From the NCBI GenBank assembly GCA_021817785.1, contig JAKAFY010000012.1, positions 1 through 47,642 of the forward strand: 47,642 nucleotides of DNA, given 5' to 3'. Positions 721-23,122 of the stretch are shown in pieces. The DNA is from a bacterium (GTDB lineage: Bacteria; Patescibacteriota; Microgenomatia; UBA10105; UBA927). A program made the position numbers and the translations under genes. The stretch's first letter is position 1; every line of letters starts with the position of its first letter. Under the pieces are notes generated by a model, which worked only from the letters and a program-made list of their open reading frames with translations, was not told where the DNA came from and did no database searches.

Positions 721-1389
721 TTACACCGCTCCCTTACCGGAAATCATCGCCCACGGGCTTTTGAACATGATCATGAGGTCGAGGAGCAGGGATTTTTTCT
801 GCACGTAGTCCGCATCGAGTTTGATCCGCTTGTCAAAGTTCACTTCGCTTCTGCCGGATACCTGCCAGTGTCCCGTAATGCCGGGACGCGCCGACAGCAC
901 GATCTTTACCAGGTCTTTTGTGTGCGGATATTTCCGCTGCTGCTCTACCAATTCGTCGGAATAATACGGACGCGGACCGACCAGACTCATATCTCCCTGC
1001 AATACATTCAGAAACTGGGGCAATTCATCCAATGAATGCCTGCGGATAAAATGCCCGACGCGGGTGACCCGCGGGTCGTCGTGCAGTTTATAGCTATTGC
1101 GCTTATATTCCTGATACAGTGAGCGCAATGTGGGATCGGTACGAAGCTTCGTATGCGCGTTTACGATCATGGAACGGAATTTATACAGCTTAAACGGTTT
1201 TCCGTCTTTTCCGACACGCTCCGGCGTATCCGCAAACACCGGTCCCGGGCTGTCCAGCACGATGGCACAAGCAACCAGGATACCGATAGGGAGAAACAAT
1301 ACCATGAGGAATATGCTGCCCACCATGTCTATCAAACGCTTACTGATGCGGTACCAATTCCCATCCATAATATTAGGTGAGGTGGTCAT
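721..1389 (-). CDS. Undecaprenyl-phosphate sugar phosphotransferase (monotopic phosphoglycosyl transferase, bacterial sugar transferase family)
   Basis: [70 protein letters not shown] motifs. Confidence 0.95.
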
Positions 1390-2458
1390 GTTCTGTGCCG
1401 TGCATGCTCTCGACCAGCTTTTTCACCTTGGGGACGGATGTTTTTTTGCAGACCAGCAGGACATCATCGGTGTTTACGACCAGCATACCGTCTACGTCGA
1501 TCGTTACCACTAATTGTTTTTTGTTATAGTTATATACCAGACTATCCACCGTATCTTCGAGCCGGACGTCTCCCTGCGTCACGTTTTTATCGTCGCTGTC
1601 TTCCAGCGCTTCTTTCAGGGCTTCCCATGCGCCGATATCGCTCCACTCGATGTTTTCCATAACGACAAAGGCGTCGCTCGGGTTCAGCTTTTCCAATATC
1701 GCATTGTCAAAATTTATTTTATCGAGCGTGGGATAGATGCGGTCCAGCACCGACTCAAACGCTTCGGTTTGCCACGCGTCTGCTATACGGGTAATATCGC
1801 GTGCGAGATTCGGCGCGAATTTCGTATAGAGAGACCACAAAAATTTCGGGGTGGTGACAAAATACCCCAAATTCCATCCGTGATGACGGTCTTCCATGTA
1901 TTGTTTCGCCGTTTCGACGTCCGGCCGATAATGCGCATCCACAAATTCATAAAACTCTACGCCGTTTACCGTTTGTACTGCCTTGCCAAACTGGATGTAT
2001 CCTAAATTTTCACTGGGAAACCGCGGCTTTTGCGTCACGAATACGAGTTTATCGGGATTCTTGGTAATTACCTCTCCGGCCGTGGTCAGTAATTTGCGGA
2101 ACAATGCCTCTTTTTTTACCAGATGATCGCTCCATAGGATGGCTATCGGCTCCGTGGGAGCTTCTTTCATAAGCAAAGCGGCCATAAGGCCCACTGCCGG
2201 CCCTACGTCACGCACCTGCGGTTCACCGATGACATGCCGCGGGGGAAGCTGATCCAGCTGTTCCTGCACGATAGACACGTAGGGCTTGCCGGTCGACACA
2301 TATATATTTTCCCACGTAAAATCCGGCTGAAGCCTGCCGGCCGCCAACTGCAACGTCGACAGATTACTGATAATTTTTTCAAACTGCTTGGGAGATTTTT
2401 TCCGCGAAAGCGGCCATAGCCTTGTTCCTACTCCACCGGCAAATATAATTGCTTTCAT
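1373..2458 (-). CDS. manC: Mannose-1-phosphate guanylyltransferase (no C-terminal PMI cupin domain)
   Basis: MKAIIFAGGVGTRLWPLSRKKSPKQF signature and WSDHLV; 361 aa. Confidence 0.9.
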   Translation of the reverse strand: MKAIIFAGGVGTRLWPLSRKKSPKQFEKIISNLSTLQLAAGRLQPDFTWENIYVSTGKPYVSIVQEQLDQLPPRHVIGEPQVRDVGPAVGLMAALLMKEAPTEPIAILWSDHLVKKEALFRKLLTTAGEVITKNPDKLVFVTQKPRFPSENLGYIQFGKAVQTVNGVEFYEFVDAHYRPDVETAKQYMEDRHHGWNLGYFVTTPKFLWSLYTKFAPNLARDITRIADAWQTEAFESVLDRIYPTLDKINFDNAILEKLNPSDAFVVMENIEWSDIGAWEALKEALEDSDDKNVTQGDVRLEDTVDSLVYNYNKKQLVVTIDVDGMLVVNTDDVLLVCKKTSVPKVKKLVESMHGTEHDHLT

Positions 2459-3600
2459 GTTCGTTCCTCCCTGCCTGCGTGTGCAGGCGTTACCAATCGG
2501 TCTACCAATAATTTCATGCGCATTGCGAACTGTTGTTCGTGCATGAGGGCGCTCTGTTCTCTGCAGGATGCAGAAGAAAATGTTTTCCTGCCAAAAGCCT
2601 CTACGGCACGAATCACTGCTTCCGGCGTCTGCTCGTCGAATAATACACCGGTTACATTGTCTTTGACAATCTCGGAAACTCCGCTCTGACGATAGGCAAT
2701 CACCGGCTTGCCGATTGCCTGTGCTTCTGCCGCAACCAATCCGAAATCTTCATCCGCAGCAAATACGAATGCGCGGCATTCCCCATAATATCGGACGAGT
2801 TCAGAATCTGTCAAATGACGGTCGATAAACGTAATGGTTTTTCCGGCGAGATGCTTGAGCTCTCTTTTTTGCCTGCCGTCGCCGATAATGACCAGCGGTA
2901 ATCCGAGGGTGTTAAATGCACGGACGAGAATATCAACCCGTTTATAGCTTACCAATCTGGAAACCGTAAGAAAATATCCCTGTGTATTATTTTCTGTGAA
3001 CGGTGAACGGTGAACGGTGAACTTTTTCTCGTTTACCGGAGGATATATAACATCGACAACATTGCGATGATAATACCCTTCTATACGATCTTTCACCCGA
3101 TTGGATATTGCAATGTAATAATCAGGTCGTGAAGACGCGATCAGATCCCACCGCCGCAGGAGCGGACCAAGCCACGTGAGAAGTATGCGGGCGACACCGC
3201 TTATGATGCCGAGCCCGGGCTGGGCGCGGTACTGTTCGTACCCGCTCCAGAGATACCGTGTCGGCGTCAGACAATAACAGATATGCACGGTGCCGGGCTT
3301 GGTAATGATATTTTTCGCTTCGGCGCTCGTTATCGAAATCACGGCATCGTAGGCATCAAAATTGAATGTCTCAAACGCCATGGGCGTAAGCATCGCTAGG
3401 GATTCGTGCATGCGGTTGGCAAACGGCAGGTGTTGGAGAAATGACGTGCGTACGGAAAATACATCCGCCCATGTGGCACGTTTCGGATCATACACCGCGG
3501 TATAAAGCGGCGCATCCGGCCATATACGGTGAAGTGCCAAAAGCACCCGCTCCGCACCTCCCCATTTGTTTACCCGATCATAGACGAGCGCTACGTTCAT
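2455..3600 (-). CDS. GT4 family glycosyltransferase (WbaZ-like)
   Basis: ORF extends to 3738, but the conserved start is MNVALVYDRVNKWGGAERVLLALHRIWPDAPLYTAVYD at 3600; YFLTVSRLVSYKRVDILVRAF and ADEDFGLVAAEAQAIGKPVIAY motifs. Confidence 0.9.
   Translation of the reverse strand: MNVALVYDRVNKWGGAERVLLALHRIWPDAPLYTAVYDPKRATWADVFSVRTSFLQHLPFANRMHESLAMLTPMAFETFNFDAYDAVISITSAEAKNIITKPGTVHICYCLTPTRYLWSGYEQYRAQPGLGIISGVARILLTWLGPLLRRWDLIASSRPDYYIAISNRVKDRIEGYYHRNVVDVIYPPVNEKKFTVHRSPFTENNTQGYFLTVSRLVSYKRVDILVRAFNTLGLPLVIIGDGRQKRELKHLAGKTITFIDRHLTDSELVRYYGECRAFVFAADEDFGLVAAEAQAIGKPVIAYRQSGVSEIVKDNVTGVLFDEQTPEAVIRAVEAFGRKTFSSASCREQSALMHEQQFAMRMKLLVDRLVTPAHAGREERT
2996..3022. repeat. Short heptamer tract (ggtgaac)x3.9 inside GT4 gene
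   Basis: gtgaac ggtgaac ggtgaac ggtgaac; encodes FTVHRSPFT at the linker between GT-B domains. Confidence 0.85.
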
Positions 3601-4648
3601 AGATATTGAGTGTCTGTTCGGCCATCCGGCGCCATGAATACGACAAAAGCATGTTGCGGCCGGCGACACCGGGACGTGGGATGTTGCCGAGTGCCGCCCG
3701 GATACTTGCGGAATCATTCGGATCAAAATATGTGGCATGGTCGCCTACTATTTCATGAAAAATTGCGATATCCGAAACCAGCACGGGGCATCCGAACGAC
3801 AACGCTTCAAGCGCCGGCAATCCGAATCCCTCCATAAGAGACGGAAATACGAATGCTGTGGCATTGCGGTACAAATTAGCCAGCTCGGTATCGTCCGCAG
3901 GTCCGAAAAAGAACACGTTTTCGCTCCGCACACGTGTACGCAGTCTCCGGTAGAAAAAGTCGTCATTGCCGACAAGTACTAATTTCCTTTTTTCTTTCGT
4001 TACGGCATCTATGAGCATCTCCAGATTTTTATGCGGGTAGGCGTTTCCGACATACAAAAGATATGGATCCTTTATGAGTCGCTTCGCGCCGGATAGCGGA
4101 CCGCTGATGTGAGCCAATGTAGTATCCACTCCTTCATACGTTACCGTGATCTTGTCATCTGCTATGTGAAAATGATCGATCACCTCGCGTTTTGTCGTTT
4201 CCGACACGGCTATGACATGCCGCGCATTCCGAAGCCCCACAAAAAGCTCCAGCCAATACCCCAGCCGTTTCAGCTGATACAGCGGCAACGGCAGCGTGGT
4301 GGCCTTCCCGGTATTAAAATGGAGTATGGTCAGGTCATGGATCGTGACAATCATGGCGCCGCGGTACAGTATCGGAGGATTATGGTACGGGATATGGACA
4401 AGGTCCAATGTTTCCTTGGCAAACAGTTTCGGCATAACCCACTGTTCCCTTAGGGTGTGCCACGACACGTCGGCACATACTTTCGTCCACCGGGCATTCG
4501 GAAGCACGAACGACGCATAACTTTTTTTCCGCAAAAATATGACGTACTCGTTTGTCCTGTCGATGTCGGAAAGATTACCCAGCAGGTTCCTGATATACCG
4601 CCCGACTCCGGTTTCTTCCAATAATCGTGCATCTATACCTATCTTCAT
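3578..4648 (-). CDS. GT4 family glycosyltransferase
   Basis: MKIGIDARLLEETGVGRYIRNLL; TIHDLTILHF; YLLYVGNAYPHKNLEMLIDA; PSLMEGFGLPALEALSFGCPVLVSD. Confidence 0.93.
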   Translation of the reverse strand: MKIGIDARLLEETGVGRYIRNLLGNLSDIDRTNEYVIFLRKKSYASFVLPNARWTKVCADVSWHTLREQWVMPKLFAKETLDLVHIPYHNPPILYRGAMIVTIHDLTILHFNTGKATTLPLPLYQLKRLGYWLELFVGLRNARHVIAVSETTKREVIDHFHIADDKITVTYEGVDTTLAHISGPLSGAKRLIKDPYLLYVGNAYPHKNLEMLIDAVTKEKRKLVLVGNDDFFYRRLRTRVRSENVFFFGPADDTELANLYRNATAFVFPSLMEGFGLPALEALSFGCPVLVSDIAIFHEIVGDHATYFDPNDSASIRAALGNIPRPGVAGRNMLLSYSWRRMAEQTLNIYERSARL

Positions 4649-4653
4649 ATGCG

Positions 4654-5592
4654 TTACAGAGAAAATTTCTCAAGAAAGAACAGTCGCGTCGCATAGACTG
4701 CATTTACGATCCACGTGAGTATACCGGGGTACGTTTTTTCATAATGCTTGGTATAAAATAACCAATTGTATTTTTGGAAATATATTTCCGTCGTTACGCG
4801 GCGTTTTTTAAACGGATTAGCCCTGCCGCTTTGTTTCTTTTTATGAAGCATGGTTACCGCCGGGTTAAACCATATGTCCCACCCTGCCTGCCGTATGCGA
4901 TAACACCAGTCTATATCCTCCCCGTACATAAAATAATCCTCATCCAACAACCCTACCTCCCGTATCACCTCGTTCCGCACCAGAAAAAAAGCACCGACGA
5001 TACAGTCTACTGTGTGAGCCGAGGAAAGGTCCTTGTATCCCTGGTGATACTCGCCGAACAGTTTTGTGCGGGGAAATAATTTTTCCAGTTTACTAAGATA
5101 GGTAAACGCAACCCATGGCGTCGGAAACCCCCGATGACACGCAGGATCCATCGAACCGTCTGCAAGTAAAAGTTTGCACGTTGAAGCCCCTGCCTTCGGA
5201 TGGCGATCCATAAACCGGATCATGGCCGCTAGGGTATCCGGGGGCATTTCCGTATCGGTATTCAAAAGCAACACGTATCTCCCGCGTGCGTTGCGGATGC
5301 CGGGATTATTCCCTGCGGCGAATCCCAGATTTTTCTTATTATCGATGATACGAACGTCGGGAAACGATTCCCGGATCATGTCCAGGCTGTTGTCCGACGA
5401 CCCGTTATCGCAGACGATCACTTCCATCGTGTATGCCTCCAACCGGGAAGCATACAGCGTCGTAAGACACATCCGTGTCAGCTCCCTCGTATTATAGTTG
5501 AGGATGACCACAGACAGATCTATCGCATGATGTGCCGATGACGGTTTCATAATTTTTTTCTTATCGGTGCGCATGTTTCCAGACGTCACCAA
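4654..5592 (-). CDS. GT2 family glycosyltransferase (rhamnosyltransferase-like)
   Basis: LSVVILNYNTRELTRMCL; VCDNGSSDNS; LNTDTEMPPD; MYGEDIDWCYRIRQAGW. Confidence 0.92.
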   Translation of the reverse strand: MVTSGNMRTDKKKIMKPSSAHHAIDLSVVILNYNTRELTRMCLTTLYASRLEAYTMEVIVCDNGSSDNSLDMIRESFPDVRIIDNKKNLGFAAGNNPGIRNARGRYVLLLNTDTEMPPDTLAAMIRFMDRHPKAGASTCKLLLADGSMDPACHRGFPTPWVAFTYLSKLEKLFPRTKLFGEYHQGYKDLSSAHTVDCIVGAFFLVRNEVIREVGLLDEDYFMYGEDIDWCYRIRQAGWDIWFNPAVTMLHKKKQSGRANPFKKRRVTTEIYFQKYNWLFYTKHYEKTYPGILTWIVNAVYATRLFFLEKFSL

Positions 5593-6739
5593 GTTCGCGC
5601 GCTATAATATCCCAGGTATAGTTTTTCTCTACGAGTCGCCGCGCTTCACGGGATATGCGTTCCCGCACCTTCGCATGTTCCCAGATATCGGTCACCGCGT
5701 CCACATACTCGTTGGTCGTGCGCGCCTCCAGATAATGGACATCCGGCTCCGCCAGAAGCCCCGCCATGCCGTGCGCGCTGGTTACTATCGGCAATCCGCT
5801 CGCCATGGCTTCCAGCATTTTATACTTGGTGCCTCCTGCAATCGCATGCGGAGCAAGCAGGACGTCCGCATCGTGATATACAGCCGTGATATCCAAAACA
5901 TCGTTTTGGATACGTCCTCCGAGCGCCTGCACCCGGGAAACGATTTCCGACGGGATATGCCGGCCGGCAATCGTCAGCTCTGCATGAGGATGTTTCCTCA
6001 GGATAGCAGGCCAGATTGTCCGGACCAATTCATCTGCTGCCTGCCGGTTCGGAAGCCACCGAAAATTTCCCACAAATACCGCCCGTTTCCGGCTGATTGT
6101 CGGCGGCGGCTGGAATTGAAACATAGACAAATCGACGCCGTTCGGTACGACTGCAACGTCGTGGCTCAGGTAGGTTTCTATGATAGTTGCATCATCAGTC
6201 GATACGGCGGTCACGGCAGCGGCCCTGCGCCATACCGTTCGCTCCCAGGAAAAAAGCTTCCCCACATCCCATGAAAGTAGCGGCCGGAGCAGTGGCAAAC
6301 GGAACGTGGCGACATACCGCTCGTACACCGAGTATTCGATATTGTGTTCCGATACGACGACCGGTATGGACGTATGCGGCAACGACGGCCAGACATAAAA
6401 CGGCTCCAGATGGATACGGTCATACCGGTCCGCGGCAAGTATTTTTTGCAAAAGCAACCGCATCCTGGCGTTATCGTAGGTCGCGAGCAAAAACGGAAAC
6501 GAAGAACACGCTGTACCCAGAATATATTTGGGTTGCCAGGCGTACCCGCGGTGTACCATATAGACCCGCTTGCAAAATCCGAGATCGGATACATACGCCC
6601 GTTCCCGTTCGTCCCGGATAAATGATACCAGGGTAATCTCATGCTGTTTGGACAGCCGCTTCAAAAGCTGGTATATGCGGATTTGACCGCCGGAATGCAA
6701 TGGATACGGCAATACTGCGGAAACAAAAAGGATATTCAT
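5561..6739 (-). CDS. GT4 family glycosyltransferase
   Basis: Likely start MNILFVSAVLPYPLHSGGQIRIYQLL (ORF extends to 6754); AVFVGNFRWLPNRQAADELV; ADVLLAPHAIAGGTKYKMLEAMASGLPIV. Confidence 0.9.
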   Translation of the reverse strand: MNILFVSAVLPYPLHSGGQIRIYQLLKRLSKQHEITLVSFIRDERERAYVSDLGFCKRVYMVHRGYAWQPKYILGTACSSFPFLLATYDNARMRLLLQKILAADRYDRIHLEPFYVWPSLPHTSIPVVVSEHNIEYSVYERYVATFRLPLLRPLLSWDVGKLFSWERTVWRRAAAVTAVSTDDATIIETYLSHDVAVVPNGVDLSMFQFQPPPTISRKRAVFVGNFRWLPNRQAADELVRTIWPAILRKHPHAELTIAGRHIPSEIVSRVQALGGRIQNDVLDITAVYHDADVLLAPHAIAGGTKYKMLEAMASGLPIVTSAHGMAGLLAEPDVHYLEARTTNEYVDAVTDIWEHAKVRERISREARRLVEKNYTWDIIARELGDVWKHAHR

Positions 6740-6754
6740 ACGTCCCGACTGCAA

Positions 6755-8224
6755 CTACTTTGTATTCTTTACCACCGTTTTTGGTTTCGTGAGGTCTATG
6801 ATGGCAAAGGTCTTGTTTCGTACGAGAACGGTGTATTGCTCCGCGAGTGTTTTTGTTTCCCAATCGTTATCCGTCGGGGATACGGTGACGTACGCCGTTG
6901 CCCCCATGGCAATTTTTTTATCGATATCAAACCCTAACGGCCATCCCTGACGGTGGGTAGCGTACAAAAACGTGGTATCGCCGTTATACGGAGCTATGAC
7001 TTTGGCGTTTTTGGGTAATAGTTTGTCAGCTGCTGTTCCCGCTTCGATGATTTCCGGGTGATTGATCCAGTAATACGATCGGATCGTATACCAGGAAAAT
7101 GCGACCATGAATGCGATACACGTGCCTGCCATGACCACTGCCATCGGCCGGGAAAAAACTTTATGTGTCACCATGAACACGATGCCTTTTGCGACATATA
7201 TCGACACGATCGGCAAAAGGAGTATCTGGTAATAATCGTGCTGGACGTTGCCTGCCGCAAATACGATAAGATACAGAAGACTTCCGACCGTTAGCCACCG
7301 GAGCGTCCACCCTTCCCGTTTCCCTCCGGGCAGTATGAGGCCCAGTACGAACGGAACGACCCCCCAATACCCGAGGATCAGATTTGCAATCCGTTGGGAG
7401 AACAGCCAGTAAAACCATGCGCCTTTAAACCGGATATCCCCTTTGTTAAAGAGCCAGTCAGATGCAGGTATTCCTTCGGGAAACTGCAGAATCCAGTGCC
7501 GCCACCACAAAAACGGCGAGAGCGACAAGGCGGCGTAGAGAAAACTCCGGACAATAAACTCTTTGGAAAACCCGTATTTTTTCCACAAAAGATACGGCAC
7601 CGGGATAAGTAAAAACCCGGCCGTCGGCTTGACGAGCACTGCCAGCGCGGAACTTATGATGCTTATGATAAACAGCCATGCATCTTCCGGCGGGCGTTTT
7701 TCCCCGTGATCCGACAGCCGTACCAGACAATACAGACTTGCCACCGAAAAAAATACCGCCAGGGGCTCGGCCAGCGTCACGCGGCCGTAATACACGCTAT
7801 ACGGCAATATTGCATAGATGACACCGGTGAGCACTCCGGTAAACGGGCTTATGAGCAGCGAAATCATGAGCGTCAGAAGTATTGCAGCGCCGGACGACGC
7901 TACTATCGTCGTTATCCGGAGCCATCCGTCCAGCGATATGCGGGACGAAATATGACTCAAACCTACCGCAATCATCTGATAAACCGGGAATTCCACCATC
8001 CTCCAACCCATCGGGTTGTCTTTGCCGGACTGGATGTTCGACAAATCTTCATACCGTGGGTGCAACGGATCCATGCCGAATTGCACGAAATACCGGGCGA
8101 CCGCAGCCGTGTCGACCTGCCGGAAACTATGCCAATCCGCTATCGGGCCGTTGAATTTATACAAACGGACGGCCACCGAAACGGCAAAAATCAATATAAG
8201 TGACACAACGGTATATTTTTTCAT
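6755..8224 (-). CDS. GT39/ArnT-like multi-membrane glycosyltransferase
   Basis: DWHSFRQVDTAAVARYF GT-C motif, YSVYYGRVTLAEPLAVFF, about 11 hydrophobic segments. Confidence 0.85.
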   Translation of the reverse strand: MKKYTVVSLILIFAVSVAVRLYKFNGPIADWHSFRQVDTAAVARYFVQFGMDPLHPRYEDLSNIQSGKDNPMGWRMVEFPVYQMIAVGLSHISSRISLDGWLRITTIVASSGAAILLTLMISLLISPFTGVLTGVIYAILPYSVYYGRVTLAEPLAVFFSVASLYCLVRLSDHGEKRPPEDAWLFIISIISSALAVLVKPTAGFLLIPVPYLLWKKYGFSKEFIVRSFLYAALSLSPFLWWRHWILQFPEGIPASDWLFNKGDIRFKGAWFYWLFSQRIANLILGYWGVVPFVLGLILPGGKREGWTLRWLTVGSLLYLIVFAAGNVQHDYYQILLLPIVSIYVAKGIVFMVTHKVFSRPMAVVMAGTCIAFMVAFSWYTIRSYYWINHPEIIEAGTAADKLLPKNAKVIAPYNGDTTFLYATHRQGWPLGFDIDKKIAMGATAYVTVSPTDNDWETKTLAEQYTVLVRNKTFAIIDLTKPKTVVKNTK

Positions 8225-11200
8225 TGTATCGTTGGCGGCGGTTTTATGACCGCAGTCACGGATCCGTCTGCCGCAAACAGGAACACTTTCTGTGTCTTCG
8301 AATTATACTGCACGGCATTCAGTGCGGACGGAACGTCCGGCCACATGTAGACGTGGGCATTCGGATTTCTGAACACAAACCACACAGCATCAGGCAACCC
8401 CACCGGGAATACCCACGCTTCCCCGTGGCGGATCGGTACGGATACAAAATGAAATTGCATAGGCTGAACTGCCCAATAATCCTCATACGAGGATTCCATG
8501 GAAATTACAAACCGCTTGACCTGTTCTCCTGCTTCATGCCAGTCCCCCTGAAGTTGTTGCAGCACTACCATCTGATACAGGCCGAATACTCCTACGAGGA
8601 TCGACATGATCAGTACTGCGATGGTGCGGCCGCTTTCCGATAGGAATATGTAGGCTTTATTGGCAACATAGACCAATAGAAAAACAAATCCGATCGATGC
8701 CAGATACCCATACCGCGACGCGATATTCCCGAGACCCAAAAACGGCGCCAGCGCGATTACCGAAAATCCTACGGAAAATACCACCAACGCCCGTTCCTGC
8801 AACGGTATATACCGGAACACCCTTCGCCCCGCCAGATACAGCGCATATGCCGCCCCCGCACAGATAATAAATGCAAACAACAGGTGCGCTTGCAGCACCC
8901 CGCGGATTACCGTATCTATCCGGATGCCGAACGGCCCCAACACGGTCATCAGAAAATATCCGAGAAAATTTCCTGCCGCGTTTAACGGAAATTTTATGAT
9001 GTTATAACTGTAATCCCCGCTGAACCAATGGCTGTGCGAAACAAACCGGACGACTGCATATAGCGGAAGCGGAAGGAACAGCCACCAGTGCATGGCAAAT
9101 TTTTTATCCCGGCCCATGGTCCAAAGATACAATACGCACAAAAACGGCGTCACAATACCAAGTTCATGGAATAACAGGGACAATACCGAAAACGCGAGGG
9201 CTGCTGCCATATAGATACCCTTTCGGTTTTCCGTCCATGCGATATAACTTAATACACTCAACAAGATACATACCGAAGTAAACAGAAATCCCGTCGCGGA
9301 GACCCAGAATATAACCTCCGCAAATCCGCTGAGCAGAAGAAACACAAACGCGCTGATGACCGAAAGAAGTTTTGTACGGAATATTTTTTTCGCAAGGAAA
9401 TATACGAGCACGCTGACCATAAAATGAAGAAACAATGAAACCGTGTGATACGCGGTTTGGTTCAGCCAAAAAAATTGATACATCGCCTGGAAATACACTT
9501 TTGTCCCGGGCCGGTAAAAAAATCCGTCCGACTGGGTAAAAAACCGCACGACCGCACCGATGTCAACGGACTTGGCCGCCCAACGGAACCAGGTAAAGTC
9601 GTCGCCGACGAAATAATTCGTAAGTACCGGGGAAAACAAGACAAACGTCGTAAGAAGCAGATACACCGCGACTGCATACGATGACGTGATGATACCGATC
9701 AGCCGCTGTGATACACGGGGTGTTCCGGGCTTATATAAAGCAAGGAAGCCAAGCGACACTCCCAGAAGCAGCCACAGCGAAAATGCCACCTTGGACGCCT
9801 CAAAAACGTCTATAAACACGGCGTTAATCGCAAGTCCCACCACTCCCGCGACGATACCAAGTACGAAGCTTTTTACCGGTTTTGAATCGACGCTCGGCAG
9901 GGCGTTTTTGATATACATGCCGGCAATCACAAAGATGATGACAAACGCGATCAATCCCAACATCCCCGTTTCCGCGAGCATCCGAAGATAACTGTTGTCT
10001 ACCGCGAGACTGACCGACCCGTATCCGCTCCCCAGCAGAATATTCCGCTTGAACGCCGCAACTGCATTGGGCCACTCCCCCTGGAATCTCGTGGTAAACG
10101 ACAAATCATATGCGAATGTTTTTTTCACGATATACGGGCCGTTGATCACAAATACCTGGGCGGCGCTTGTGGCGGTTTTCTCTCTTGGTTCATACAAAAA
10201 TTGATTTATTTTTTTTACCACCGGCGAAAGCGTAAGGTTTATATACCCCGTCCCGGAGGGCAAATCCTCCCCGGTGGGAGAGACAGGGCTATATAACAGC
10301 ATCTTGTCAGAAAGCAATGCATACGGAATATCAAATGATGCGGATACGCTGGCCGCTGTCGATATGTCGTCTATGTTTTTCGAGAATTGCTGCCGGACGA
10401 CTTTGTCTTTGAAATATGTTTTCGGGACTTGGGATACCTGGCCGATGGGATTTCCGGTGGCCGTATCGACCAAAATATCCACCTGTGTGAGCGTGCTTCC
10501 GAACCGCTGGACCAGACCGGGAGAATGGCTGAGGACAAGAAATGCGCCGATTATCGCGACGGGTATCGCATACAGCACAAGCTTTTTTTTCTGAAACAAC
10601 AGCACCAACCCAAGCGCCACGATCAGTCCGAACGCCGAAATCCTCGACACCGTAAGCATCAGGACATACGTTCCCAATACAACACAGAGCCCAAACAGTC
10701 CGCGTACGATGACATTCGTATACCCGAACATCAGACTCACGATGATCGGCAATACGAGCACCAGATATGCAGCCAGGTCATAATGTCCGCCGAACGTCGA
10801 GGAAATGCGTGCCTGGGAGAAAGCGTCAGCGCGACACCCTTTGCCACTTCTTCATTCATGGTCAAATATGCAGGGAACCCCATATAGCGTTGTCCGATGC
10901 CATACAGGCTGATTGCCAAAATGGTCAGCGTCAGTACACCGACGACAACGTGCAGGAACCGCTTGTCCTTTACGGACGTAAACGCGACGAAAAACAAACT
11001 GATGTATTCGATCCGGCGCACCAGGCTGAGGAATGCCACGTTTGAAAATATGTTCGCGACGGTAGGAAATATCAGAAGGACCCCCTGCAACGTAGCCAGC
11101 ACCCCGACCAGCCAGAACGACAATATGGGAATGGTAAGCGGGGTGACCAGCGATATCTTCCGCCGTAATACCAGGAAGCCCCAGGCCAACAGGATGCCCA

Positions 11201-11369
11201 AAACCAGAAAGTCTTCAACCCGGACGTACACCCAGGTATGGACGACGTTCACTAACGGCAGCTTCGGGTACAACGGAATAAACGCTATCAAAAACAGCGT
11301 CGATGCCGCCATACCCCATTGCCTACACCAGTTGATAAGCTTCCGCATAGGTTTCTTTAAGATAGGCAT
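8221..11369 (-). pseudogene. O-antigen ligase/Wzy-like membrane protein fused to a C-terminal GT-C-like membrane region, interrupted by an apparent 1-nt frameshift near 10815-10817
   Basis: N-terminal part in ORF 10737-11369 (VYVRVEDFLVLGILLAW...) ends ...VALTLSPRHAFPRRS; the alternative frame reads QARISSTFGGHYDLAAYLVLVLPI and continues into ORF 8221-10761; C-terminal part has NYFVGDDFTWFRWA and FFYRPGTKVYFQAMYQFFWLNQTAYHTVSLFLHF. Confidence 0.8.
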
Positions 11370-12189
11370 TACCGGTGAGCATGCCCACAGCCCAGCTGAT
11401 AACTGCCTTTATTTTCAGCATCCACCGCAGTATGCCAAGCGAAACACGCGACGCGTGTTTTGTGTACAGATAGATATAACCGCGATAGATCTGTAACACG
11501 GGTCCTTTCCGTTTATTGGTAGAACTCCCGCTCCCTAAGTGTACGACAAGACTCCGGGGATAGAAATAGGTGGCATACCCTTTCTTTTTCGCGCGGTATA
11601 AAAGATCAATTTCTTCCATGTACATAAATATGTTTTCATCAAACAACAAGTCGTTCATAAACAGCCGTTTTGGCGCCATGATCGCTGCTCCGGATATCCA
11701 GTCAACCTTGCGTACATGATTGGGAGACCACCGGGTGATCCCCAGTCTATCCCCCTTCAGAAACAATGCGGCAAACACAACCGGTAACGAAAAAAACGGG
11801 CCGCATGAGGTTTGGGCACTGCGGTCGAGATTTAAAAGTTTCGGCCCGACAAAGGCGTTCGGGTGCTGGCGGGCGAATGCAAAAAGCTTGCCGAGCGCAT
11901 GGTTTAAAACGACAGTATCGGAATTCAAGAGCAGAATATATTCCCCTTTGGCTGCGCGTATACCCTGGTTATTTGCCCGTCCGAATCCGATATTTTCATC
12001 ATTGAAGATCGTTTTCACCGACGGAAATTTTTTGGCGAGCATCTCCCGCGTTCCGTCCGTGGATACATTGTCGATAAGCAGTATTTCCCAGGTAAGCTTC
12101 GTCTGTTTCAGGCTGCGTATGACGCTTCCCAAACAATCTTCGGTAAGTTTTTTGGTATTGAAACTGATGATGATGACGGATAGATCCAT
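11323..12189 (-). CDS. GT2 family glycosyltransferase
   Basis: LSVIIISFNTKKLTEDCL; LLIDNVSTDGT; LLLNSDTVV; FMYMEEIDLLYRAKKKGY. Confidence 0.92.
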   Translation of the reverse strand: MDLSVIIISFNTKKLTEDCLGSVIRSLKQTKLTWEILLIDNVSTDGTREMLAKKFPSVKTIFNDENIGFGRANNQGIRAAKGEYILLLNSDTVVLNHALGKLFAFARQHPNAFVGPKLLNLDRSAQTSCGPFFSLPVVFAALFLKGDRLGITRWSPNHVRKVDWISGAAIMAPKRLFMNDLLFDENIFMYMEEIDLLYRAKKKGYATYFYPRSLVVHLGSGSSTNKRKGPVLQIYRGYIYLYTKHASRVSLGILRWMLKIKAVISWAVGMLTGNAYLKETYAEAYQLV

Positions 12190-12213
12190 ACGTATAACCG
12201 GATGTAATCGGTG

Positions 12214-12813
12214 TTACTGGAAAAGACGGGCGAATTTCAGCGTATAGGTGAGATCTTTCGTGCGGTTTTTTATAAATACGGCGGGTACTCCGCCCACGAC
12301 CGTAAACGGTGCGACGTCTTTGGTTACGACGGCCCCGGAAGCCACCACCGCGCCTTTCCCGATATGAACCCCGGGCAATATCGTCACCCGGGAAGCGATA
12401 ACTGCGTAATCGTCTATAACAACCGGCGCCCCTGTTTCCGCAAAATCCGGGGAATCGACATCATGCTCCATCGTATAGATGCGTACTTCGCCTGCGATCG
12501 AGACATTATTCCCGATCGTCAGCGGACGCGTGTGTCTGCCTGACAACTGTTGTACATAACTCGAAAATCTGCTTTCTCCTTTTTCGATCACGCGTTTGCG
12601 CCTGCCGTCCAAAAACGCATCGTTGCCGATAATCGTATTGTGCCCGATTGCGACGCCTGCCGGATTGTTAAACTCCGCCCGCCAGTGGATGGAGCTGTCA
12701 CGGCCGATGCGTACTCCGAATACCACGCGATACAACAACAGCCGTATTGTATGGCTGGGGATATATCCGGAAAGCGTACAAAGATATACCCAGAAATCGA
12801 TAAGCGCTCTCAT
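12214..12813 (-). CDS. LbH (hexapeptide repeat) O-acyltransferase, WcaF-like
   Basis: IGRDSSIHWRAEFNNPAGVAIGHNTIIGNDAFLDGR; VTILPGVHIGKGAVVASGAVVTKDVAPFTVVGGVPAVFIK. Confidence 0.9.
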   Translation of the reverse strand: MRALIDFWVYLCTLSGYIPSHTIRLLLYRVVFGVRIGRDSSIHWRAEFNNPAGVAIGHNTIIGNDAFLDGRRKRVIEKGESRFSSYVQQLSGRHTRPLTIGNNVSIAGEVRIYTMEHDVDSPDFAETGAPVVIDDYAVIASRVTILPGVHIGKGAVVASGAVVTKDVAPFTVVGGVPAVFIKNRTKDLTYTLKFARLFQ

Positions 12814-13940
12814 GCGTTTCCTCCCCGTCCGACGTAGGATAGCACGTCTAGTACAGTGTCTGCGGCTTTGTCCCAGGTAAATTGTTTCGCGAGTTTTTTG
12901 CCGAGTGCGATTCGTGCCGATTCTTCTTTTGTTCCTTTTTCCCGGATAGCCTGCAGCAGTCCGTCGGCAATGCTTTTGGTATCCGACGGGTCAACGTATA
13001 TGCCGCTTTTTCCGGCTATTTCGGGCAGGCTTGACGTTTTGCTTACCACAACCGGAGTCCCGTGTGCCATAGCCTCCAGCACGGGCAAGCCAAATCCTTC
13101 GTACAGGCTGGGAAGCGCAAAAAATTCTGCGCGCTCGTAGAGGGCCGGAAGCGCATCGTCAGGGACGAAGTCCAGAAACTGTACCCTGCCGGAAACGCCG
13201 CACCGGTTTGGAGCAGTCAGGATATCCTCATAGAGCCAGCCCTTTTTCCCGACAATCACCAGGGATATGTCCCGGTCGGGTAGCGCGGAAAATGCTTCGA
13301 TGAGGCGGACATAATTTTTGCGCGGCTGGATTGTTCCGACGGAGAGGATATATCGTTTGGGCAGTGAGGTAAGCGTCGATTTTTTCCCCATAGATTTTTT
13401 GGTATCTACCGAGTCGGACAGCGCCGGATACGCCACCACGATACGATCCTTTGGCACATGGTAGGCTTCTATTATAGCATTTTTCGAAAACTCGCTGATC
13501 GTAATAATAGTGCGTGCATGAGAAACGGAATATGCCGTCCCGTGGATGAGCTTATGCAGATCCTGCGGCCGGAATAACTCGGGATACAACAGGTAGGAAA
13601 CGTCCATAATCGCCATTACCTTGGGCACGGAAACAAACCGGGGAATATAGTGTGTCGGAGAGAATACGACGTCCGCCTGCGGCATGTCGGCCTGCAGCGC
13701 CATCGGCAAAGCCCAAAACGTCCAGAAGTTTTTCGGTTTTCGGAGGACATAGTGCCAGCGGGATGTGCGCTTGGGCATATGCGGCTTCGGTGCGTCCGGC
13801 ACATACACGCGTACAGAGTCAAACGGCGTGTTACCTGCCTCCACCCGTGCGTAGATATGCGTCAAAAGTTCCAGTGCATACCGGCCCACTCCTACCCGGG
13901 CGTCCGCGTTGGCTTCATAGCCGTCTATTGCAAGTATCAT
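12810..13940 (-). CDS. GT4 family glycosyltransferase
   Basis: MILAIDGYEANADARVGVGRYALELL; YILSVGTIQPRKNYVRLIEAF; PSLYEGFGLPVLEAMAHGTPVVVSKTSSLPEIAG. Confidence 0.94.
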   Translation of the reverse strand: MILAIDGYEANADARVGVGRYALELLTHIYARVEAGNTPFDSVRVYVPDAPKPHMPKRTSRWHYVLRKPKNFWTFWALPMALQADMPQADVVFSPTHYIPRFVSVPKVMAIMDVSYLLYPELFRPQDLHKLIHGTAYSVSHARTIITISEFSKNAIIEAYHVPKDRIVVAYPALSDSVDTKKSMGKKSTLTSLPKRYILSVGTIQPRKNYVRLIEAFSALPDRDISLVIVGKKGWLYEDILTAPNRCGVSGRVQFLDFVPDDALPALYERAEFFALPSLYEGFGLPVLEAMAHGTPVVVSKTSSLPEIAGKSGIYVDPSDTKSIADGLLQAIREKGTKEESARIALGKKLAKQFTWDKAADTVLDVLSYVGRGGNA

Positions 13941-13952
13941 ATGCCGCTGTAA

Positions 13953-14525
13953 TTATATCCCCGGATATACGACCCGGAGTTTGTTGTTTGCTATGCCCAG
14001 TAATGTGTGGGCATCCCGTTTTGTCGCCTCGGAATCACAAAAAAACGCGTGGCACACGTGTGCTGCACGTTTTAGCCTGCGCGTTTGGATCGTCACTATG
14101 TTTGCCGATACGGTTCCTTTGGCATAATCGACTTCCGTTACGTCGTGCGATTCTCTGGGATACCGTAATACGCTCAGGTCATGTATGGTCGTCACTCCTT
14201 TTGCGTGGATAAGCGGGGGTTGTGTCCAGTCACTTGACCAAAATATGTCAACGGGACCGGTAAACCATTCGACCGGGAGAATATGCCACCGATTCCAAAG
14301 CACATCAAGAATGGTTGGGGGGATCGGAACCGTCACCAGCCGCACGCGGCCGCCGAGCGACGCGGCAAAGGATGTAAAAACGTCGCGCCGCCGCAACGAC
14401 GCTCCGAATACTATATATTCGTTCTGTGTATCCTTGGCAAGGATTGCGGCAATAAGACGGCGCACATAGGCAGACACGCCGGTACCCTCATACACGATCT
14501 GGCTTATGTCTATGGCTATCTTCAT
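13953..14525 (-). pseudogene. GT4-like N-terminal half only (C-terminal nucleotide-sugar-binding domain absent)
   Basis: MKIAIDISQIVYEGTGVSAYVRRLI ... VTTIHDLSVLRYP ... NKLRVVYPGI then TAA; next gene starts 12 nt downstream. Confidence 0.75.
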
Positions 14526-15508
14526 GCGTATCCTTTAGGATGACTCGTATGCCATTTCATGGCGGATGTAACGATTGAGCCAATATCCGAATGCGCAGGC
14601 TTCCAGCCGAATTCTTTCATGATTTTTGCGGGATCGGCCACCAGAATGGGCGGGTCCCCTGCTCTTCGTCCTGCTTCTGTCACCGGAAAGGCATGTCCTG
14701 CAGCACGCGTAATTTCAGCAACGACTTCCCGAACGCTCGTTCCCGTACCGGTACCTACGTTGTATACATCCGACGGGTGCCCAGAGATTAACGCCTCCAG
14801 TACTTTTATGTGTGCGTCACACAAATCTTCGATGTGGATATAATCCCGAAGTGCCGATCCGTCGGGTGTTTCGTAATCCGTGCCGAATATCGAAAAATGC
14901 GCGCGCAAGCCAAGCGCAGCCTGACAGGCCAATGATATAAGGTGCGTTTCCGGGGTATGAGACTCCCCGTGCAATCCGTCCAGGCTTGCGCCGGCGGCGT
15001 TGAAATACCGCAGGGCAATGCTTTTTATCCCGTATGAGCGGTCATATACCCGAAGCAACTCCTCAAACGCCCATTTCGACAATCCATACGGGGAGACCGG
15101 CTGTTTCCGATGGTCTTCCGAAATCGGAACGGTAAGCGGATTTCCGTATACGGCGGCGGTCGAAGAAAAAATAATAGGCTTCACTCCTGCTTCACGCATG
15201 CACTGCAGCAGGGTTACGGGTCCGATAACATTGTTTTTCATGTACTTTATGGGAAACCGGACGGATTCTTCGACCTGGAGATATCCTGCAAAATGCATCA
15301 CGCCGTCGATATGATGGTCGGAGAATAGTTTTTTGACCACCGTTTCATCCGCGACATTTCCCACGACAAGCGGCGCTTCGGCAGGAAGTGACTCTTTGTG
15401 TCCGTACTCCATGCTGTCGAGCACCACTGCTTCGTACCCGCGTGCAATAAGCATGCGTGTCATGTGACTGCCTATATACCCGGCGCCGCCGGTCACGAGT
15501 ATTTTCAT
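14522..15508 (-). CDS. galE: UDP-glucose 4-epimerase
   Basis: Likely start MKILVTGGAGYIGSHMTRMLIARGYEAVVLDSMEYGH; FSSTAAVYGNP; SPYGLSKWAFEELL; ALRYFNAAGA. Confidence 0.93.
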   Translation of the reverse strand: MKILVTGGAGYIGSHMTRMLIARGYEAVVLDSMEYGHKESLPAEAPLVVGNVADETVVKKLFSDHHIDGVMHFAGYLQVEESVRFPIKYMKNNVIGPVTLLQCMREAGVKPIIFSSTAAVYGNPLTVPISEDHRKQPVSPYGLSKWAFEELLRVYDRSYGIKSIALRYFNAAGASLDGLHGESHTPETHLISLACQAALGLRAHFSIFGTDYETPDGSALRDYIHIEDLCDAHIKVLEALISGHPSDVYNVGTGTGTSVREVVAEITRAAGHAFPVTEAGRRAGDPPILVADPAKIMKEFGWKPAHSDIGSIVTSAMKWHTSHPKGYA

Positions 15509-15578
15509 AAGAGTATCCGTTTTCTGTAAATTCTTTCTTGCTATGAACCGTGAACGTGTATTACTGTGAGCGTCTCTT

Positions 15579-15800
15579 CTATTGTACCGTATGAGGGTTA
15601 CGGAGAGAAATAAGGATATACGAAAGGAAGAAGGCCGCAGCATACCATGTCAGCCGCTCCGCGGTAAAAAATATGTGGAGCGCAAATAATGGGATTGCCA
15701 ATACGAGACAGACGAGGCCCGTCCACACAAGCATCTTTGGCTTTCGCATCCACAGCAACACGATATACAGAATGAAAAAAATAATATCCTGGAATTTCAT
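15579..15800 (-). CDS. Small hydrophobic protein, 73 aa, two or three predicted TM segments
   Basis: MKFQDIIFFILYIVLLWMRKPKMLVWTGLVCLVLAIPLFALHIFFTAERLTWYAAAFFLSYILISL; hydrophobic periodicity, co-directional with neighbours. Confidence 0.55.
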   Translation of the reverse strand: MKFQDIIFFILYIVLLWMRKPKMLVWTGLVCLVLAIPLFALHIFFTAERLTWYAAAFFLSYILISLRNPHTVQ

Positions 15801-15810
15801 GAATAAAGCC

Positions 15811-15957
15811 GTTACCTGTTACCTATCACCTGTTACCTGACACCTGTTACCTGACACTTGATACTTGATACCCGTCACTCGCTACTCGCTGCTCGCTACT
15901 CTCTACTCGGTACTCGTCACTCGCTACTCGGTGCTCGCTACTCTCTACCCGCTACCT
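15811..15957. repeat. Degenerate heptanucleotide minisatellite, 21 in-phase 7-bp units
   Basis: gttacct gttacct atcacct gttacct gacacct gttacct gacactt gatactt gataccc gtcactc gctactc gctgctc gctactc tctactc ggtactc gtcactc gctactc ggtgctc gctactc tctaccc gctacct; position 5 is C in every unit; no indels. Confidence 0.95.
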
Positions 15958-16891
15958 GTTTATAATATTCTATCGTCTGTTTCAGTCCGTCATCTACGGA
16001 AACGGCAGGTTCCCATCCGAGCAGTTTTTTCGCTTTCGTAATGTCCGGTTTTCGCTGCGTGGGGTCATCGACCGGCAGACGTACATGGACAATCTCCGAC
16101 GACGATCCGGTCATATGTTTTATTTTTTCGGCAAAGTCGATCATCGTATATTCCTCGGGGTTACCGATGTTTACCACTTCGCCCGTTGTGTTATCCGTTT
16201 CCATAAGGCGGATAAGTCCTGCGACCATATCGCGTACGAAACAAAACGAACGCGTCTGTTTCCCGTCTCCGTATACCGTCAGCGGTTTGCCGGCCAGAGC
16301 CTGATTGATGAAATTCGATACGACTCTGCCGTCTGTGGGGCGCATTCGGGAGCCATAGGTGTTAAAAATGCGGGCTATGCGGCCGTCCACTCCATGATGT
16401 TTTACGTATAACATCGTTATCATTTCCCCGAACCGCTTGGACTCGTCATAGCAACTACGCACGCCGTTGGGATTCACATTTCCCCAATAGGTTTCTTTCT
16501 GCGGATGTTCCTTGGGGTCACCGTATACTTCGCTCGTGGACGTAAAAAGAAATTTAGCGCCGTGTGCTTTGGCGACCTTTAGCATTCCCCTTGTTCCGAC
16601 CGAGTTGACCAAAGCGGTTTCTTCCGGATATTTCTGATAATCGGGAACCGATGCCGGCGACGCCAAATGGTACAAAAAATGGATCGGCCCGACGACGGGT
16701 AGTTCCTGCGTTACATCATGACGGATATAGGCAAACTTCGGATTCTTTTTCGCTTCGGTGAGATTATCTTCATTGCCCGTGATCAGGTTATCGATCGCAA
16801 ATACCTTATATCCTTTCAAAAGCAACGCATCGACCAGGTGACTGCCGATAAATCCGGCTCCTCCGGTGACGACTGCACAGACGTTATCCAT
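15938..16891 (-). CDS. UDP-glucuronate decarboxylase-like SDR (UXS type)
   Basis: Likely start MDNVCAVVTGGAGFIGSHLVDALLLKGYKVFAIDNL; STSEVYGDPKEHPQKETYWGNVNPNGVRSCYDESKRFGE; ARIFNTYGSRMRPTDGRVVSNF. Confidence 0.85.
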   Translation of the reverse strand: MDNVCAVVTGGAGFIGSHLVDALLLKGYKVFAIDNLITGNEDNLTEAKKNPKFAYIRHDVTQELPVVGPIHFLYHLASPASVPDYQKYPEETALVNSVGTRGMLKVAKAHGAKFLFTSTSEVYGDPKEHPQKETYWGNVNPNGVRSCYDESKRFGEMITMLYVKHHGVDGRIARIFNTYGSRMRPTDGRVVSNFINQALAGKPLTVYGDGKQTRSFCFVRDMVAGLIRLMETDNTTGEVVNIGNPEEYTMIDFAEKIKHMTGSSSEIVHVRLPVDDPTQRKPDITKAKKLLGWEPAVSVDDGLKQTIEYYKQVAGRE

Positions 16892-16914
16892 ATATATTGT
16901 ATTATAGCGGTCTT

Positions 16915-18465
16915 TTATGGCCGGACAATCCCCAAACGGCCAAGCTGCTGCCACGTGTCCGCAGAAATGTTCTGCATACGCGTCCGACGGACATATAAAC
17001 AACCGGGTTTTCCTAAACTGAGAAACTGGACATACGTAGCGCGCACGTCTTCCGGAAGACGGTTATATGACGTCTGCAATGCCGGACAACTGTAGTACAC
17101 ATCCGGGGGTGTTTGAGAAAACATGGTAGCCCGTAATGCCTGGTATCGCGGTATCCCCGCTTCAACCGGTATATAAAGACTCATCGGGTAGGAGGACTGC
17201 CGATGCGATTCCCAATAAATAATGTCGTCCCACATATCCAGAAAGAGCGTGTCGGTCGGCCGGGAAATTAGACGGATAGCCTCGGCGTACTGTGTATATT
17301 TGGCATATTGACTGGCAAACTCGCTCTGTCGGTCTATCCGTTCCCAGACAAACGCCCGCGGTGAAAAAACCGCTCCCGCGGTAAAGACGGCAAACAGAAG
17401 AATCAACGCATTCCTAATCTGCGTATTTCGTATCGACGTCAAAAAAAGTACGGTGACCATGATAAACAGCGCATACCACAAAAGCAGGTGAAACGCGTCA
17501 AAATACATATGTCCCGGCGGCACTGTACGTATTCCGGAAAGCATCAGGACCACAAATAGGATGCCCGCCTGAATCAGGGATTTCCGCTCCCGCCACCAGC
17601 AAATAAACGCGGACCAAAATAACACGCCCAAACCGATTTCTATAAAGCGCAGATAACTCCATACCCCCGAAATAAATAGGGTGAGCGGGTACAAGAGGGA
17701 GCGCGCGAGCGAAGAAAACAGTGTTCCTCCCCCGATTACGGCGCCCGCCGCAGGCATATTGATCACCACTACCTGATAGAGGTATTCGCCCACGGGAAGA
17801 AATGCGAACGGCAGGAGAACAGTCGCGAGCGCGGTTGCCCCAGCCCAACGCGCCATATGAAGTTTCCGTTCCCGCCAAAGAAGGGACACCAGCAATACAA
17901 TTGCCACGGGCGCGTACGGTTCCCGCATCCATATGACGAAACTGCAGCTTATTGCGGCTATATAGAGGTCAGCCGGTGATATTTTTTTCAACCCGAACGA
18001 ATCCCACAGCACCCCGGCAAGATACACGACGGGATACACGATGAACGCCTCGCCGATGAACTGATATCCGTACATGTAAAATTTCGTTCCTTCATACAAC
18101 AGCAGAAATAACGCCGCAGACAATCCAAAACGCCACAACAAAAATATTCCCATACCCAACGCGTAGGCAGTCACAAAAAGCCGGTGATACAGCACGAGAT
18201 GATATATATCGGCAGGGTGCGTTATCTGCTGGATGGCGGCACTTATATATGCCAGCGTCGGCTGGTGATTAAAAAATATCTGGTTATATAATGTTTTTCC
18301 GGAATTGATGAAGTATCCGGCAGCATAGTTGATACATTCATCCCCGCATCCGAATGCGCCGATGCGCACATACAAGCGGAACGAAACGAAGGAAAAAATA
18401 CATAGGTATAGGACGGCAAGCAATGGAAATAACGGGAATTTTCCGTTATGTGGTATGCGTTTCAT
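16915..18465 (-). CDS. Multi-membrane GT-C-like glycosyltransferase
   Basis: 516 aa, CGDECINYAAGYFINSGKTLYNQIFFNHQPTLAYISAAIQ N-terminal GT-C-like loop, many TM segments. Confidence 0.75.
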   Translation of the reverse strand: MKRIPHNGKFPLFPLLAVLYLCIFSFVSFRLYVRIGAFGCGDECINYAAGYFINSGKTLYNQIFFNHQPTLAYISAAIQQITHPADIYHLVLYHRLFVTAYALGMGIFLLWRFGLSAALFLLLYEGTKFYMYGYQFIGEAFIVYPVVYLAGVLWDSFGLKKISPADLYIAAISCSFVIWMREPYAPVAIVLLVSLLWRERKLHMARWAGATALATVLLPFAFLPVGEYLYQVVVINMPAAGAVIGGGTLFSSLARSLLYPLTLFISGVWSYLRFIEIGLGVLFWSAFICWWRERKSLIQAGILFVVLMLSGIRTVPPGHMYFDAFHLLLWYALFIMVTVLFLTSIRNTQIRNALILLFAVFTAGAVFSPRAFVWERIDRQSEFASQYAKYTQYAEAIRLISRPTDTLFLDMWDDIIYWESHRQSSYPMSLYIPVEAGIPRYQALRATMFSQTPPDVYYSCPALQTSYNRLPEDVRATYVQFLSLGKPGCLYVRRTRMQNISADTWQQLGRLGIVRP

Positions 18466-18608: not shown

Positions 18609-19592
18609 ATGCGGACGCAAAAAAAAGACATTCTTATTACCGTTTCCTTAGTCGTCCATAACCAAGGAACTCTTCTTTCACACGCCGTCAAAGAAATCAC
18701 GGACACATTACGTAAAACATATCGTTTTTTTGAAATTCTCGTCATAGATAACGGCTCGACAGATCACACCTATCAAACCGTCAGTGAACTATTGCAACAC
18801 AATCATCATGTACGCGCCCTTATTTTATCGAAACAGTACGACGCTGAGATCGGATATATGGCTGTCCTGGACAACTGCATCGGGGACTTCGTTATACTTA
18901 TGGACATTGCATCAGACCCACCCGCCTTTATTCCTACACTTATACATACTGCTCAACGGGGGTACGATATCGTAAAGACTAAAAAATCCGAACGGGACAC
19001 TTCGCACAGAATGCCTCTACTCGAAAGGGTATATCGATCTCTCTATCGAAACATATTACATTACGAAGCGCCCACGGACACATCAGATTTTATAATATTT
19101 AGCAGACGCGCCGTCAATTCCCTCACGTTGTTTCGGAATAAACACAGATATCTCCACTACCTGAATTCAGTTATTGGATTCCCCCAGTGTACCCTTACTT
19201 ATACGCCACGTAAAAATAGATCATCGGACCGTCGCGTCAAAAACAATATAGCGGCAGCGTATCGATTTTTTGATATGATCATTTCCAATTCGACATTGCC
19301 CCTGCGTTTTGCTGCCTTTGTGGGAGTAACCGCAAGTTTTTTGAGTCTTTTATATCTTCTGTATACGCTCATTGTCGTTCTCGTAAAGAAAAAATTAGCC
19401 GAAGGGTGGCTCACAACTTCCGTATTAAATGCGAGTATGTTTTTCCTGCTTTTTATTATCCTGACGATTCTTTCCGAATATATCGACCGGATTATCCATG
19501 AAACGAAAGAACAACCAACGTATATCATCGCTGAAGAGCTTTCACAGGGAACAGTAGCGGATATAAAGCAACGGGTAAACGTACAGCGCTAA
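18609..19592 (+). CDS. GtrB/DPM1-like GT2 glycosyltransferase with two C-terminal TM segments; atypical DxD region
   Basis: LVVHNQGTLLSHAVKEI; ILVIDNGSTDHT; ILSKQYDAEIGY; FVILMDIASDPPAFIP; C-terminal hydrophobic pair. Confidence 0.8.
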   Translation: MRTQKKDILITVSLVVHNQGTLLSHAVKEITDTLRKTYRFFEILVIDNGSTDHTYQTVSELLQHNHHVRALILSKQYDAEIGYMAVLDNCIGDFVILMDIASDPPAFIPTLIHTAQRGYDIVKTKKSERDTSHRMPLLERVYRSLYRNILHYEAPTDTSDFIIFSRRAVNSLTLFRNKHRYLHYLNSVIGFPQCTLTYTPRKNRSSDRRVKNNIAAAYRFFDMIISNSTLPLRFAAFVGVTASFLSLLYLLYTLIVVLVKKKLAEGWLTTSVLNASMFFLLFIILTILSEYIDRIIHETKEQPTYIIAEELSQGTVADIKQRVNVQR

Positions 19593-19600
19593 CATAACGT

Positions 19601-23057: not shown

Positions 23058-23069
23058 TTTGCCACACGA

Positions 23070-23098
23070 ACTGTATCATCACTTGTAAACAATCGCAA
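23070..23098 (-). promoter_or_regulatory. Candidate promoter for FAD oxidoreductase: TTGCGA-N17-TACAGT
   Basis: -35 at 23093-23098, -10 at 23070-23075 on minus strand; -10 ends 12 nt upstream of ATG at 23057. Confidence 0.4.
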
Positions 23099-23110
23099 AT
23101 TTGTTATAGT
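23083..23110 (+). promoter_or_regulatory. Candidate promoter for plus-strand GT-C gene: TTGTAA-N16-TATAGT
   Basis: -35 23083-23088, -10 23105-23110, 12 nt upstream of ATG at 23123. Confidence 0.5.
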
Positions 23111-23122
23111 CGATACGGCCGT

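Follow-up and report, generated by a model that had tools for sequence, protein, structure and literature searches.

Polymerases and ligases of the Wzy/WaaL superfamily (PF04932; CAZy clan GT-C1) are themselves glycosyltransferases (GTs) of the GT-C type, subclass GT-CB, and the enzymes assigned to subclass GT-CA include the families GT39 (PMT), GT83 (ArnT), GT66 (oligosaccharyltransferases, OST), GT57 and GT53. In three-component Gtr systems (GT136; PMC11127046), a GT-C enzyme decorates undecaprenyl-linked polysaccharide on the outer face of the membrane from a lipid-linked donor, but this enzyme is a separate protein that acts after polymerisation. We analyzed a minus-strand gene in a 47,642-nucleotide stretch of DNA (hereafter the window; contig JAKAFY010000012.1 of assembly GCA_021817785.1) from a bacterium of the class Microgenomatia (Patescibacteriota; order UBA10105, family UBA927), a branch of very small, uncultured bacteria within the Candidate Phyla Radiation. 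The genome assembly comprises 1.28 Mb in 38 contigs, the window being contig C37, and is 96.7% complete. In this gene a polymerase-like module of the Wzy/WaaL kind (the N-half) continues in the same chain into a second, predicted complete GT-C enzyme of ~490 amino acids (the C-half). Our preferred reading, to which we assign a probability of roughly 0.6, is that the gene encodes one polytopic protein with two extracytoplasmic glycosyltransferases of a single surface-polysaccharide pathway, coupling polymerisation to sugar transfer.

We confirmed that the fusion is real, far beyond what chance would produce. Within the order of the window, the C-half was matched in 21 of 27 genomes; leaving the window aside, 16 of these have it within a frame of 1003-1097 amino acids. 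In 66 of 374 sampled genomes of the class the C-half profile found a strong match, and 58 of these matches are intact single frames of 943-1104 amino acids. The remaining eight are six pieces at contig edges, the frameshifted copy of the window, and one genome (G124) in which the N-half and the first 47 positions of the C-half share one frame and the rest of the C-half lies in another. This break falls within the C-half rather than at the junction, and G124 was therefore rejected as a split-gene homolog; G041 was rejected as well, because of a contig edge. Scanning genome contigs with a single sequence gave no match, and an alignment-based scan yielded 61 named GTDB loci; both half-profiles share one open reading frame (ORF) in every untruncated locus among them. 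Separate genes for the halves of this fusion type were found neither in the class sample nor in these 61 loci, and among 380 genomes sampled across the phylum the fusion was seen in the class of the window only. The junction is nearly invariant in length: 68, 69 or 70 amino acids separate FEASK, the last motif of the N-half, from DDFTW of the C-half in 56 of 56 loci. Proteins that are related to the C-half but stand alone do exist (E-values of 1e-10 to 1e-30; ~450-650 amino acids), but in the seven stretches fetched (L147-L153) no Wzy gene resembling the N-half profile (A3) lies close by, and hence no split ancestor of the fusion was found. The sequence-only reading had proposed one gene after correction of the frameshift, with the frame running on without a stop, and had suggested looking in relatives for the same fusion or for separate genes; the intact single-frame orthologs bear this proposal out, and the relatives have the halves fused and never separate in this fusion type.

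A second fusion was identified in the same operon slot of other lineages. We found homologs of the N-half in 198 of 233 genomes of the class, and these fall into two size classes. In most families sampled (type A), Wzy stands alone (~460-580 amino acids) and a PMT gene follows directly (L159-L176, L188; with a few incomplete cases). In the families f2, f5, f23 and f24 (type B; L177-L187, L190), Wzy is fused to PMT in a chain of 1039-1117 amino acids in which Pfam recognizes both PF04932 and PF13231; the C-terminal part is 39-45% identical to the PMT downstream of the window's fusion, and no separate PMT adjoins the fusion at those loci. Type B thus shares with the window's type (type C) the Wzy slot, the order Wzy-then-GT-C and a similar size, but its C-terminal module is the operon's own PMT_2-type GT-C, whereas type C carries a different GT-C module, one outside Pfam, and has retained the PMT gene. 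In the Wzy tree, C-type sequences form one clade (100/98) and so do B-type sequences (97/96) if L163, which is cut by a contig end, is counted among them; the B-type sequences also form one clade in the PMT tree (100/98). Because the C-terminal modules of types B and C differ, we count two fusion events, the Wzy-PMT fusion being the second, independent one. Comparing the two modules with hhalign (A2 C-half alignment versus A4 PMT alignment) gave a probability of 61% (E-value of 8e-5 over 182 columns), which is only suggestive of remote homology. That one operon slot has been fused twice, each time with a different GT-C module, argues more strongly than any other evidence available that both activities belong together. 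We also observed a genome of family f9 (G157:C1; L188, L189) with two Wzy genes ~13 kb apart, of 562 and 1238 amino acids; the C-terminal extension of the longer one matches neither GT-C module.

The N-half resembles the Wzy/WaaL superfamily in its PF04932 match, its number of predicted transmembrane segments, a long outer loop near its C-terminal end and conserved outer-side Arg and Asp residues; it differs in continuing into another enzyme, and it is not known to belong to any of the CAZy families GT119-GT135. PF04932 (Wzy_C) scored 38.9 bits in the genome search, with neighbouring stretches of the frame included (cut-off 31.7), and 30.3 bits, slightly below the cut-off, by hmmscan on the window; it was matched in 14 of 17 relatives (E ≤ 0.01). 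A sequence search of the PDB with the N-half returned nothing useful. The full-length model of an intact ortholog (mean predicted local distance difference test, pLDDT, 75.5; predicted template modelling score, pTM, 0.71) matched the WaaL structure 7TPG with a probability of 0.99 (TM-score of 0.55 over the target), a match that ranks behind a series of GT-C matches also given by the C-half alone. Model helices and hydropathy predict 12 transmembrane helices in the N-half, with an outer loop of 179 amino acids between the ninth and the tenth. Residues R422 and D452 on this loop are invariant, as are R181, R236 and R457 in the A3 alignment. With 12 transmembrane segments, the linker would be cytoplasmic and the first loop of the C-half outside, so that both active sites are predicted to face outwards.

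WaaL has an acceptor-activating His, and the polymerases of clan GT-C1 and the SEDS proteins mostly have Asp or Glu at this position; Wzy-type polymerases of the clan combine this Asp or Glu with one or two conserved Arg (PMC10920833). The N-half has D452, equivalent by motif position, and conserved Arg residues. Asp occupies the acceptor motif position (AVDNSYLRMLGE) in 51 of 51 C-type members matched by pattern, and types A and B present TDN; the pattern missed most members of these two types and all paralogs of the window genome, which were read by eye. The His typical of WaaL (GT121; His-313 of 7TPG) is replaced by Asp in all A-, B- and C-type members inspected, whereas six of seven other PF04932 proteins of the window genome have His there. 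Since the acceptor position holds Asp and not His, the N-half is likelier a polymerase than a ligase, and the operon context suggests that it polymerises repeat units linked to a lipid diphosphate. The N-half could instead be a true WaaL-like ligase that moves the finished glycan to a protein or lipid acceptor, with the GT-C half capping or decorating it. PF04932 includes ligases and the fold resembles WaaL, but the Asp just described and the fact that no operon gene scanned besides this one is a polymerase candidate make this reading unlikely.

Returning to the polymerase-like protein, we analyzed its C-half. No Pfam family, PMT/PMT_2 (PF02366/PF13231) included, was matched in 18 members; no NCBIfam family was matched either, and a sequence search of the PDB gave nothing useful. 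An AlphaFold2 model built from 18 sequences reached a pLDDT of 88.0 and a pTM of 0.89. The top 25 matches of this model in the PDB (Foldseek; E-values from 2.3e-4; probabilities of 0.96-1.00; TM-scores of 0.31-0.50 over the query) are all GT-C enzymes or GT-C-like subunits: the OST subunits STT3, AglB and PglB, as well as ALG9, AftA, DPY19, Pmt4, AftB and a GPI-transamidase subunit. Residues D34, D35, W38, R64, P65 and E129 are invariant across the 18 sequences, and the invariant residues also include the GFFYRP motif and several Arg; GDDFTW, with its two invariant Asp, is an acidic motif that lies behind the first transmembrane helix, in the first outer loop. Most of the solved fold matches fall into GT-CA under the scheme cited in PMC10920833; we class the C-half as a probable member of GT-CA, so that the fusion joins a GT-CB to a probable GT-CA enzyme. 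The C-half shares with GT-CA enzymes the predicted fold, the acidic pair and a predicted outer-face active site, but it differs from them in having no match by family or sequence and in being fused to a Wzy-type protein.

Alternatively, an OST-like C-half might transfer the polymer made by the N-half en bloc to a protein or another surface acceptor, so that polymerisation would be coupled to attachment. This is in line with the OST subunits among the top fold matches. We nevertheless consider it improbable: the OST motif WWDYG is absent from 18 of 18 C-halves, for which reason the C-half was rejected as an OST (GT66); probabilities of 0.99-1.00 were also reached by ALG9, AftA, DPY19 and Pmt4, enzymes whose donors are lipid-monophosphate sugars; and two LCP-type ligases in the genome could attach the polymer. 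The sequence-only reading had described the N-terminal ~540 amino acids as Wzy/WaaL-type and the following ~500 as GT-C-like, and had proposed a PF04932 search and structure prediction as checks. Both descriptions held up, the first through the PF04932 match, the 12 transmembrane helices and the WaaL-like model and now narrowed to polymerase over ligase, the second through the predicted GT-C fold of the C-half.

In the coupled polymerase-decorator that we favor, the operon's cytoplasmic GT2 and GT4 enzymes would assemble a repeat unit on undecaprenyl diphosphate and a Wzx-like flippase would turn it outward. The N-half (GT-CB fold, Wzy-type, Asp variant) would then join the undecaprenyl-diphosphate-linked units, and the C-half (probable GT-CA, GDDFTW) would take another sugar from a polyprenyl-phosphate donor and attach it, on the outer face, to the same unit or to the chain being built. 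The linker, which is short, cytoplasmic and of fixed length, would keep both catalytic sites on the same face of the membrane, such that units are decorated during polymerisation, and LCP-type or other enzymes would attach the finished glycan. Elsewhere in the genome we found three Wzx-like genes, two LCP genes, 19 PMT_2 matches and one GtrA/DPMS-type gene, the last being a candidate for donor supply. We infer the coupling of the two reactions, which is backed by the second independent fusion, by the fixed length of the linker and by the joint inheritance of the halves described below. Several points weigh against this reading. PF04932 is weak in individual members and often under its cut-off, the confidence of the full-length model is moderate, and hhalign found no significant similarity between the N-half profile and E. 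coli WaaL. The Asp is mapped to the WaaL His by motif position and not by a residue-level structural alignment. Finally, the sequence does not reveal the donor of the C-half, and among its best structural matches are oligosaccharyltransferases, enzymes whose donors are lipid diphosphates. It is also conceivable that only one of the two modules is catalytically active, the other being its scaffold in the membrane or a partner that binds substrate, given that the catalytic roles of both halves are predicted and that membrane enzyme complexes often contain inactive partners. The candidate catalytic residues of both halves are, however, invariant or nearly so, even in the frameshifted copy of the window, and we consider this possibility very unlikely.

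We further analyzed how the fused gene is inherited relative to its operon. In a member of the same genus (L101), the flanking genes are 61-86% identical to those of the window and the three parts of the fused gene 49, 38 and 31%; in a member of the Levyibacteriota (L062), the flanks are 39-67% identical and the fused gene 59, 54 and 45%. Across 55 loci, the pairwise divergences of the N-half and the C-half are strongly correlated (r = 0.92), whereas either half correlates with eight flanking genes at 0.27-0.45 only; five pairs of flanking genes correlate among themselves at 0.50-0.76. The contrast between the halves and the flanks indicates that the fused gene was inherited as one unit. The simplest reading of these divergence patterns is that the whole fused gene has probably been exchanged between lineages as a cassette, although ancient paralogy followed by differential loss may account for the same patterns. 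Polymerase genes are exchanged as cassettes in serotype switching. We put forward more tentatively, at less than even odds, a broader proposal: a bifunctional one-chain polymerase and decorator might have evolved twice with different GT-C partners and be exchanged as a single serotype-like cassette, which would reset the exposed polysaccharide while the rest of the operon stays in place.

The copy in the window is split into two overlapping ORFs (Table 1), which alignment with intact relatives identified as parts of one frameshifted gene; an alternative start lies at 11348 (MRKLINW..). The conserved residues are preserved on both sides of the frameshift, and a single stop-free frame from ~10,803 to 8,224 spans both modules, with the stop at 8221. 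The frameshift may be a sequencing or assembly error or a recent mutation. It might also be suspected of having created the fusion from two adjoining genes, but it lies inside the N-half, ~1 kb from the junction, and the fusion occurs in one frame in dozens of independent assemblies, such that the relatives refute this explanation. The G124 copy mentioned above (L144; G124:C1:415000-430000) comes from a single-contig genome, and its frameshift is situated just after GDDFTW, at ~6833-6903. The frameshifts of L144 and of the window could reflect error, gene inactivation or phase variation.

Table 1. Features of the fused gene and its surroundings (positions in the window).
Feature	Position	Strand	Basis or content
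ORF, 846 amino acids	8221-10761	minus	window translation
Overlapping ORF, 210 amino acids	10737-11369	minus	window translation
First part of the N-half, 184 amino acids to ...ALTLSP; Wzy/WaaL-like module before the frameshift	10818..11369	minus	A3 profile positions 1-178
Frameshift region within the N-half	10800..10860	minus	residues on either side align to intact relatives
Second part of the N-half; remaining Wzy/WaaL-like module with the long outer loop and the motifs TTRFQGEW and AVDNSYLRML	9703..10803	minus	A3 positions 170-538
Asp codon for the D in AVDNSY, which by motif corresponds to the acceptor-activating His of WaaL	9997..9999	minus	motif; PMC10920833
C-half, 493 amino acids and stop; GT-C module (probable GT-CA) without Pfam family	8221..9702	minus	profile and model
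Invariant Asp-Asp of GDDFTW, first outer loop of the GT-C module; candidate catalytic or metal site	9598..9603	minus	alignment
Conserved glycan operon	721..17002	minus	PF02397 sugar-phosphate transferase, NTP transferase, GT4, GT4, GT2, GT4, PMT, [fusion], GT2, hexapeptide acetyltransferase, GT4, GT4 fragment, two NDP-sugar epimerase/dehydratases
Downstream gene, PMT-type GT-C (PF02366/PF13231), 4-nt overlap with the fusion	6755..8224	minus	Pfam; module that other families fuse to Wzy
Upstream overlapping gene, GT2 glycosyltransferase of the conserved operon	11323..12189	minus	operon

Most of the 61 loci have homologs of the operon genes around the fusion (PMT at 54, the hexapeptide transferase at 55 and GT4_12810 at 55). 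The operon has retained a half-length GT4: the fragment at 13953-14525 (minus strand; 190 amino acids) possesses only the acceptor half, PF13439, and its homologs measure 168-249 amino acids in most C-type loci seen and 380-398 amino acids in several type A and B loci. Beyond the operon, a plus-strand block (18609-21971 and 23048-25261) lies inside the otherwise minus-strand glycan region and encodes two GT2 enzymes, a weak epimerase match, a xylose-isomerase-like TIM barrel and a 737-amino-acid protein without Pfam match. Two large minus-strand genes are located near each other, one for a protein of 992 amino acids with a C-terminal GDSL/SGNH hydrolase domain (25253-28231) and one for a protein of 1162 amino acids without Pfam match (29212-32700). 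Nine of the 19 PMT_2-type matches of this 1.28-Mb genome are found on contig C18 (G000:C18), beside the GtrA/DPMS-type gene, which encodes 391 amino acids.

Both kinds of component were already known. The open-access literature searched, on the fusion and on surface glycans of the Candidate Phyla Radiation, contained no description of their combination in one chain, its two origins or its inheritance as a unit, a scope that left subscription papers and Pfam architecture listings outside. How polymerisation is coordinated with extracytoplasmic decoration is little understood, since each enzyme is a protein of its own in the systems of the literature covered. A natural one-chain fusion offers a defined target for structural work and for reconstitution. 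That the same operon slot has seen a second, independent fusion speaks for the two modules working as a pair. For the Microgenomatia, whose surfaces are almost unknown, these results describe a core surface-glycan operon in which one gene changes as a unit.

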